DNA of 64,000 bases from positions 1-64,000 of the forward strand of contig JAUXYM010000004.1 in NCBI GenBank assembly GCA_030694365.1, read 5' to 3'. This document shows positions 39,239-41,196 of this stretch, one piece after another; position 1 is the stretch's first letter; each line of letters starts with the position of its first letter. Under the pieces are notes generated by a model. It was not told the origin of the DNA and searched no databases. It was given only the letters and a program-made list of their open reading frames with translations. Source of the stretch: Nevskia sp. GTDB taxonomy: Bacteria > Pseudomonadota > Gammaproteobacteria > Nevskiales > Nevskiaceae. The translations under genes and the position numbers were made by a program.

Positions 39239-39324
39239 GCTTTGCAGACCCCGGCCGAACCGAGATCACCGGCTGCGGTCTGAGCGCTACCTTTCCAACC
39301 CGCCCACTCCTGACAGGAACCCCC

Positions 39325-39861
39325 ATGAGCAAGGAAAAGAGCAAACCGAAGGCGCCGAAGCCGGTCCCGGCCCCAAGCCCAACGACCACTGAAGCGACCA
39401 TCGACATCGGCATCAGCAAGGCTGACCGCGCCGCGATCGCGCACGGTCTCTCGCGCCTGCTGGCGGACGAATACACGCTGTATCTGAAGACCCACAACTT
39501 CCACTGGAACGTCACCGGGCCGATGTTCAACACCCTGCACCTGATGTTCATGGGCCAGTACACCGAATCATCGCTGGCGGTGGATCTGGTCGCCGAGCGC
39601 ATTCGCGCGCTGGGCTTCCCGGCACCGGGCACCTATGGCCAGTACGCCAAGCTATCGAGCATCGACGAGGACGAAGGCGTGCCGGCGGCGCTGGAGATGG
39701 TCAAGAAACTGGTCAAGGGCCACGAAGCCTGCGCGAAGACGGCACGTTCGGTGTTCCCGCTCGCCGAAAAGGCCAGCGACGAACCGACCGCCGATCTGCT
39801 GACCCAGCGTCTGCAGTTGCACGAGAAGACCGCGTGGATGCTGCGCTCGCTGCTCGAATGA
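39325..39861 (+). CDS. dps: Dps-family DNA-binding/ferritin-like protein
   Basis: [36 protein letters not shown] ferroxidase motif; Lys/Pro-rich N-terminal tail. Confidence 0.9.
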
Positions 39862-39888
39862 TCGAGCCGCATAAGCCGTAAAATGAAA

Positions 39889-40174
39889 GGGCCGACTAGG
39901 GTCTGTTGACAGCTACTTCGGTCACTGCGGCGGAGGTCGTTTAAGCCCAGTGCAACGAGCGAGGAGCGGCCAATAGTCGACCTATTGGCGCGACGAGCGA
40001 GGCAGCAATGGGCTCAAACGGCCCCGCCCCGAAGGGCTGCGGCCAAAAAGCCGCCAAGACTTCGTTGCGAACCTTGACCATAGGTAGACTATGGCCTGCG
40101 GTCCGCGCCTCGCTTGGCGGCTTTTTGACCTGCAGCGCAGCGACCGAAGTAACTGTCAACAGGCCCGCCGGCCC
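39889..40174. repeat. Structured multi-hairpin intergenic element
   Basis: Terminal imperfect inverted repeats (39889-39923/40142-40174) enclosing CCAATAG-TCGAC-CTATTGG, CCATAG-GTAGA-CTATGG and GGCCAAAAAGCCGCCAAG/CTTGGCGGCTTTTTGACC. Confidence 0.75.
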
Positions 40175-40194
40175 TTTTCTTGCGCATCGCTTTC

Positions 40195-41196
40195 ATGGCC
40201 ACCCCTCCGCTCCTGTCCGTCCGCCGCCTGCGCGTGCTTTATGCCAGGCGCGGCCTGCTTCCCGGGTTTATGTCTTGGGGCCGCGCAGCCGACATCCGCG
40301 CCATCGACGATCTGCACTTCGACCTTCAGCCCGGCGAGACGCTCGGCATCGTCGGCGAATCCGGCTGTGGCAAATCGACCCTGGCCCGCACCCTGGTTGG
40401 CCTGCAGGCAGCCACCTCGGGCTCCATCCGCTACAACGGCCGCGAACTGATCGGGCTGAGTCGAAAGGACTGGCGGCCGCTGCGCCGTGAAGTGCAACTG
40501 GTGTTCCAGGATCCGCTGGCCTCGTTGAGCCCGAAGATGAAGATCGTCGACATCGTCGCCGAGCCGCTCAAGGCGCTGCGGCCGGAGTTCGATGCGGCGG
40601 ATCGGCGCAGCCGCGCGCTGGCGCTGCTCGATCGGGTCGGCCTCGGCCCGGAACTGGCGGACCGCAAGCCGCGCGAGTTGTCCGGCGGCCAGGGCCAGCG
40701 CGTCGGCATTGCCCGGGCGCTGATCGTCGAGCCCAAGCTGCTGATCTGCGACGAACCGGTATCGGCGCTCGACGTCTCGATCCAGGCGCAGATCATCAAC
40801 CTGCTGTCCGACCTGGCCCGCGAACGCAATCTGGCGATGATCTTCATCGCCCACGACCTCGCCGTGGTTCGTCAGCTATCGGACCGGGTACTGGTGATGT
40901 ACCTCGGCAAGGTCATGGAACAGGGCCGCGCCGACAACGTCTACGCCCGGCCGCGCCACCCGTACACGCGGGCGCTGCTCGAAGCCGCGCCGGTGATCGA
41001 AGCCGATGGCAGCAGACCGACGAAGCGCCGGCTGCTCGGCGGCGACACGCCGAACCCGGCACAGCCACCAATGGGCTGCGTGTTCCACCCGCGCTGCCCA
41101 CTCGCCGAACACGCCTGTGTACAGAGCGTGCCGCTGCTGCGGCGGGTTGATGGCGAGCAGTACGCGGCTTGTCATTTTGTGGCGGCGGGCGGCTGA
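40195..41196 (+). CDS. Oligopeptide/dipeptide ABC transporter ATP-binding protein (OppF/DppF type), orphan
   Basis: GESGCGKSTLARTLVGL, LSGGQGQRVGIARALIVEPKLLICDEPVSALDVSIQAQ, C-terminal PHPYTRALLEA and CxxRCP-like FHPRCPLAEHAC. Confidence 0.9.
   Translation: MATPPLLSVRRLRVLYARRGLLPGFMSWGRAADIRAIDDLHFDLQPGETLGIVGESGCGKSTLARTLVGLQAATSGSIRYNGRELIGLSRKDWRPLRREVQLVFQDPLASLSPKMKIVDIVAEPLKALRPEFDAADRRSRALALLDRVGLGPELADRKPRELSGGQGQRVGIARALIVEPKLLICDEPVSALDVSIQAQIINLLSDLARERNLAMIFIAHDLAVVRQLSDRVLVMYLGKVMEQGRADNVYARPRHPYTRALLEAAPVIEADGSRPTKRRLLGGDTPNPAQPPMGCVFHPRCPLAEHACVQSVPLLRRVDGEQYAACHFVAAGG

Follow-up and report, generated by a model that had tools for sequence, protein, structure and literature searches.

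The stretch of Nevskia sp. DNA analysed here (the window; 64,000 nucleotides) contains a densely palindromic interval between a dps gene and an oppF gene, which raises the question of what this DNA is and how its many inverted repeats remain paired. The readings offered by the original prediction were a non-autonomous mobile repeat, a structured RNA and a protein-binding array. The interval holds one copy of a mobile element that is very probably a MITE, i.e. a transposon lacking its own transposase and mobilised in trans by enzymes of the IS5 family, as it is 268 bp long, non-coding, multi-copy and dispersed, possesses 24-bp terminal inverted repeats (TIRs) and TA flanks, and has empty sites in relatives.

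Architecture of the element and its insertion site

The boundaries of the element (Table 1) were set from an alignment of 83 copies and the TA flanks, and from empty sites in eight congeners. The span first proposed (39889-40174) includes the element, which runs from GGG at 39899 to CCC at 40166, but its remainder includes most of both halves of a host terminator. The terminal inverted pair of the window copy covers 40 nt at 85% (39899-39938 / 40127-40166), the first 13 bases on the left matching the ends of IS5-family elements, and the stems of the two long hairpins, arm A and arm B, are inverted pairs of 19 nt (84%) and 18 nt (94%), respectively. All inverted repeats listed previously are present, including those at the apices (CCAATAG/CTATTGG and CCATAG/CTATGG), and lie far beyond chance. 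An internal duplication, also suggested at that time, is supported by the mutually inverted arm apices, since GGCGTT...CGCCTTG of arm B is the inverse of CAAGGCG...AACGCC of arm A in the wide consensus. The block CCC...GGGTTG is among the best conserved of the interior (40 non-redundant copies). As the two arms are inverted copies around a small central hairpin, the element as a whole forms a single nested palindrome, which may adopt a four-way-junction cruciform.

Folded as RNA, the element has a predicted MFE of -182.5 kcal/mol, compared with -114.4 +/- 5.6 kcal/mol for dinucleotide shuffles (z = -12.1), and none of 100 shuffles equalled it. No credible gene lies within it, and the overlapping entries of the ORF list are mechanical only, in line with the absence of coding potential noted earlier. 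Recombination sites of the attC type, which have GTTRRRY cores, were considered and dropped on inspection of the sequence.

Table 1. Positions of the element, its parts and its neighbours in the window
Feature	Position	Strand	Basis or remark
Dps/ferritin-like gene, upstream	39241..39861	+	Pfam PF00210, E 1.4e-25; coordinates are those of the frame searched, stop at 39861
Left half-stem of dps terminator, AAAGGGCCG	39886..39894	+	Comparison with congeners
TA target-site dinucleotide, left side	39897..39898	.	Read from sequence
Whole copy of the probable MITE	39899..40166	+	Canonical orientation, arm A left
Left TIR, GGGTCTGTTGACAGCTACTTCGGT	39899..39922	+	Inverted-repeat search, copy alignment
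Arm A, long hairpin	39935..40023	+	Stem 39935-39953 / 40005-40023; fold and covariation
Arm A apex	39970-39976 / 39982-39988	+	Inverted-repeat search, fold
Small central hairpin between arms, CCCC-GAA-GGG	40027..40037	+	Predicted fold
Arm B, long hairpin, inverted counterpart of arm A	40041..40130	+	Stem 40041-40058 / 40113-40130
Arm B apex	40078-40083 / 40089-40094	+	Inverted-repeat search, fold
Right TIR, reading GGGCCTGTTGACAGTTACTTCGGT on the - strand	40143..40166	-	Inverted-repeat search, copy alignment
Right half-stem of dps terminator, CGGCCCTTT	40169..40177	+	Comparison with congeners
OppF-type oligopeptide ABC transporter ATPase, downstream	40195..41196	+	Pfam ABC_tran and oligo_HPY

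The Pfam and NCBIfam matches of the neighbouring genes agree with their earlier identification as dps and an OppF gene, the downstream ATPase reaching E 3e-121 with the NCBIfam OppF model, which is below the cut-off of that model. In the eight congeners with an empty site, three of which (G002, G014 and G010) share more than 90% identity on both flanks, the dps-oppF interval is a plain terminator, AGGCCGAC-loop-GTCGGCCTTTTT. The corresponding half-stems of the window (GGGCCGACTA / GCCGGCCCTTTT) are parted by the element, which thus entered the terminator loop. The TA duplication of this copy has decayed on the right, where GC stands at 40167-40168 in the place of the expected TA. The element now probably acts as a dps-oppF spacer or terminator.

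Insertion into a loop is a single case, that of the dps terminator. A general preference for hairpin or terminator loops is not supported, as flank pairing over many copies equals that of permuted controls, and this also speaks against the interval being a plain terminator, even though the flanking half-stems form one in relatives. A chance repeat is refuted by the z value of -12, the multiple copies and their covariation, and the probability of either explanation is close to nil.

Among the Nevskiales copies (n = 83), TA is present on the left in 51, on the right in 51 and on both sides in 32. Of the 124 GTDB copies, which were selected for TA flanks, 118 have C or T before TA and 119 have G or A after it, and the target is thus YTAR. 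As the far-side base beyond TA is variable, in contrast to the constant bases of the element itself, the duplication would comprise TA and not all four bases. By a crude measure, GTDB copies avoid coding sequence (26% in open frames versus 58% of random points), and there is little such avoidance among Nevskiales copies (53%). In one Nevskia genome (L049:127-2073), a copy immediately precedes infC-rpmI-rplT-pheST and a solitary tip lies directly in front of pheS, showing that copies adjoin translation genes. A candidate autonomous element with tips 1.9 kb apart (G012:C49:127-2073) was rejected, as it consists of a 265-bp copy, infC-rpmI-rplT-pheST and a stray tip.

Copies, remnants and candidate mobilisers

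The genome of the window contains 19 matching stretches, which resolve into about 15 separate copies or fragments; contig ends truncate several of these. The element is matched in 24 of the 61 genomes searched (the own genome included), mostly of the same genus. The mobile-repeat reading of the original prediction is borne out by this dispersal, by the TIRs and TA flanks, by relatives with empty sites, and by IS5-family elements with matching tips. One copy of the own genome (L002, contig C68) and one from another genus (L041, G028) have flanks about 82% alike on both sides and elements 67% alike, which reflects one ancient insertion common to both or two separate ones at the same position.

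Shorter forms of the element keep one arm or the TIR stem only, and two minimal derivatives (L066:830 and L079:814) consist of the terminal repeats alone, as one short perfect hairpin. Several genomes carry an 18-bp palindrome, YTA-GGGCCTGTTAACAGGCCC-TAR; solo TA-flanked palindromes of this kind are located at L057:712, L058:725, L060:718, L063:689, G070:C3:90057 and G070:C21:52359. As TGTTAACA is palindromic, the tips double as direct repeats, and a slip between them would leave YTA-GGGCCTGTTAACAGGCCC-TAR. The solo palindromes are apparently remains of elements after internal deletion, and the deletion forms would fit hairpin-mediated deletion.

TIR and target are common to the element and to IS5-family transposons of the own genome, G013, G004, Acinetobacter towneri and Acinetobacter sp. 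KCTC 92772. The own genome encodes an 825-bp IS5-family element (G000:C68:141-965) whose ends read GGCCGTGTTAACAATT and which TA flanks on either side. It is frameshifted, its frames match DUF4096, DDE_Tnp_1, DDE_Tnp_1_2 and NCBIfam transpos_IS5_3, and G013 possesses a sister of it. Contigs of the Nevskia genome G004 end inside a repeated insertion sequence (IS) with the tips GGGTCTGTTGACATTTA, which adjoin the codons of the transposase start (MARRSLRNDQWA) and end (ATRYDKLASRFSAFIALVASFVWLA). A. towneri contains a decayed IS whose end, GGGTCTGTTGACATTTCA, equals the tips of Acinetobacter MITEs (up to 18/18, mean 17.6), and strain KCTC 92772 an 858-bp IS with the ends GGGTCTGTTGACATTT, TA on both sides and an intact 248-aa IS5 transposase (E 6e-79). 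Two copies of this intact IS (L333:152-1010 and L332), with the same tips, reside on a 241-kb replicon. The partner transposase, of DUF4096 plus DDE type, may belong to the IS427 group of ISfinder. IS with GGGYCTGTTRACA tips (L089, L300 and L333) share the terminal 13-18 bases and the TA flanks of the element, whereas they are 825-858 bp long, encode a transposase and have no hairpin arms.

The tips of IS closely resemble those of MITEs but show no clean sorting by host, as Nevskia IS ends fit other MITEs about as well as those of Nevskia. No PF13586 transposase was detected in the high-copy hosts Thiodiazotropha, HTCC5015, Undibacterium and Thiohalobacter, and none of their PF01609 transposases has matching tips, suggesting that the mobiliser there is lost or unrecognised; the PF13586/PF01609 search in high-copy hosts gave matching tips in A. 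towneri only. Judged from tips and target, an IS5-family transposase would move the element by recognising the paired GGGYCTGTTRACA tips and inserting them at YTAR with duplication of TA, the non-coding interior would fold as two inverted arms around the small hairpin into a four-way-junction cruciform, and the window copy would have entered the dps terminator by this route.

Transposition via single strands by RAYT (Y1 HUH, IS200/IS605-like), as for REP/BIME-type repeats, is very improbable for this element. REP/BIME with GTAG/CGTC tags are also palindromic intergenic repeats (PMC3733652), and the element shares with them a palindromic, non-coding and dispersed character and a possible fold of single-stranded DNA. 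However, their units measure 20-40 bp and lack a TIR/TA architecture (PMC3733652), whereas the element has 24-bp TIRs and TA, and by-eye comparison with that description revealed no GTAG/CGTC-tagged 20-40-bp units. The TA flanks, the perfect 13-bp terminal inverted repeats and the IS5 partners point instead to a DDE enzyme.

Conservation of pairing and the question of strand

Base pairing is kept through double changes at each level of comparison, namely in 57 Nevskia copies (103 pairs, 96.6% paired, 222 double-change cells versus 18-31 with slid partners), in 83 Nevskiales copies (94.2% of cells paired, 930 versus 109-174) and in 40 non-redundant GTDB copies (89.3% paired, 783 versus 180-276), where the slid-pair controls keep relatedness and the margin is somewhat flattered, as the structure was taken from the same alignments. 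Within a copy, the two ends agree in 91% of tip bases 9-20, compared with 60% between copies of one genome. The element is neither single-copy nor unconserved nor free of covariation, these being the three results that the original prediction had named as telling against it.

Such a strong predicted fold, with massive compensatory change and an intergenic position, could also belong to a repeated structured RNA gene or cis-regulatory RNA, of which one working transcript strand keeps the fold, and the basal helices of both arms show more G-T than A-C in Nevskia copies (67 to 7, 22 to 4 and 69 to 32). This local excess, which accords imperfectly with strand neutrality, is probably due to a few inherited columns; it is gone in the strand test of the whole element, and G-T equals A-C in the terminal stem of the Nevskia copies. 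Selection on one transcript strand would favour the fold and the G-U pairs of that strand, but the mean difference in stability between strands is 0.44 kcal/mol in 83 copies (Wilcoxon p 0.59) and -0.09 kcal/mol in 113 copies (Wilcoxon p 0.92), and the G-U pairs per strand number 4.3 versus 4.5 and 5.0 versus 5.0, respectively. The symmetry is thus a property of DNA and seems to be kept at the DNA level. In addition, Rfam has no family at gathering score, with weak matches to isrG and mir-3926 far below the cut-offs, and TA-flanked insertion and empty sites indicate mobile DNA. The structured-RNA option, weakened by the equality of the strands, is therefore considered unlikely.

The upkeep of this DNA symmetry may be due to arm-to-arm copying, i.e. 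template switching in hairpins, or to selection for a DNA fold used in transposition or replication. That the symmetry is functionless, and that copying from arm to arm, through template switching or through gene conversion within the palindrome, alone preserves it during spread, is a serious possibility, although held at less than an even chance. It accords with covariation that is neutral as to strand and with mirrored nested inserts at equivalent places on different arm strands. Resident copies, however, appear to drift uncorrected, as stem changes in the orthologous pair L004/L023 are mostly one-sided (5 single, 1 double) and the element (identity 0.937) is as diverged as its flanks (0.93-0.94). 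L003/L133 gives a mixed picture (10 single changes, 5 double), and these two are the usable pairs of the comparison. The tight length and the interior blocks conserved over classes also suggest constraint.

The nested insert is about 17 bp long, reads CCAAGTAATGTCTCTGGG or its inverse CCCAGTGAGACTACTTGGG, and replaces the A5/T5 tract in the arm stems on the left of arm B, the right of arm B or the right of arm A. It was observed in L004, L005, L006, L007, L009, L120, L123, L126, L131, L133, L143, L145, L146 and L153, of which L146 has all three. The mirrored placement suggests arm-to-arm copying or a tiny nested element.

Reach across bacteria and relation to described elements

A scan of GTDB representatives for paired tips separated by 225-255 bases found at least 120 stretches, which belong, among the matches listed, mostly to gamma- and betaproteobacteria. 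The genera listed include Acinetobacter, Thiodiazotropha, Undibacterium, Collimonas, Herbaspirillum, Andreprevotia, Zooshikella, Salinisphaera, Solimonas, Dyella and Denitromonas, and the matches listed also comprise alphaproteobacteria, Zetaproteobacteria and a few MAGs nominally from Acidobacteria, Croceivirga or Rhodothermales, which binning may mislabel. Element length is mostly 263-266 bp among the matches listed, with 101 of the 124 GTDB copies at 264-267 bp. Since the tips were the search key, the interior was tested alone with a profile from Nevskia copies only, the 24-base ends removed, which recognises 84 of the 118 listed non-Nevskia loci inside the element at E < 1e-3, with 3 matches outside and none on the reversed-sequence control.

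Judged by the number of tips, Candidatus Thiodiazotropha endolucinida would have about 95 copies, Andreprevotia lacus 55-60, Zooshikella 35 and HTCC5015 25-29. An exact search for the 24-mer tip of the window copy gave no match in GTDB, nor did Nevskia copies against plasmid and phage collections or a Thiodiazotropha copy against E. coli genomes, and an Acinetobacter copy matched five A. baumannii records partially. The full-length element is present on three putative viral contigs of IMG/VR (L295, L296 and L297), which may be a vehicle between hosts.

Like MITEAba12, the element is small and non-coding, with TIRs (~16 bp in MITEAba12) common to a resident IS5-family transposon and the rest non-homologous (PMC6382973). 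In the MITEAba12 / ISAba12 pair, the MITE is 113 bp long and AT-rich, with GGCTTTGTTGCA tips and a 9-bp duplication, and is almost invariant and limited to Moraxellaceae (PMC6382973), whereas the present element has a length of ~265 bp, a TA duplication, GGGYCTGTTRACA tips, a range of several classes and a covarying four-way fold. QMITE1 and QMITE2 of Coxiella are likewise non-coding, with TIRs and a very stable predicted stem-loop (PMC5896051). They are known only in Coxiella, QMITE2 with duplications of 7-9 bp, and the cross-class conservation and covariation seen here are not reported for them (PMC5896051). The tip strings GGGCCTGTTAACA and GGGTCTGTTGACA are absent from the openly accessible literature searched, and the sources searched contain no published description of the element, although an earlier one is possible, e.g. 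in the Polaromonas MITE paper. What sets the element apart from described IS5-family MITEs is its reach, its constant size and its covarying four-way architecture.

A tentative and rather doubtful proposal is that a cosmopolitan old transposon lineage inherits its four-way-junction fold and not its sequence, owing either to a role of the folded DNA in transposition or replication or to mutual rewriting of the arms, while the tips are re-matched to the IS5 transposase of the host. The usual picture of prokaryotic MITEs is that of local, young remnants of a resident IS. In the present case, a single architecture of near-fixed length is recognisable in Nevskia, Acinetobacter, Thiodiazotropha and Burkholderiales and reaches about 95 copies in a genome; dozens of its base pairs are kept via paired substitutions, and there is no preference for an RNA strand. 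This makes it possible to test whether selection acts on the DNA fold of a non-coding parasite, and how diverging terminal repeats remain matched. A curated signature of TIR, YTAR target and interior profile would allow the annotation of repeats which pipelines leave blank and which break assemblies.
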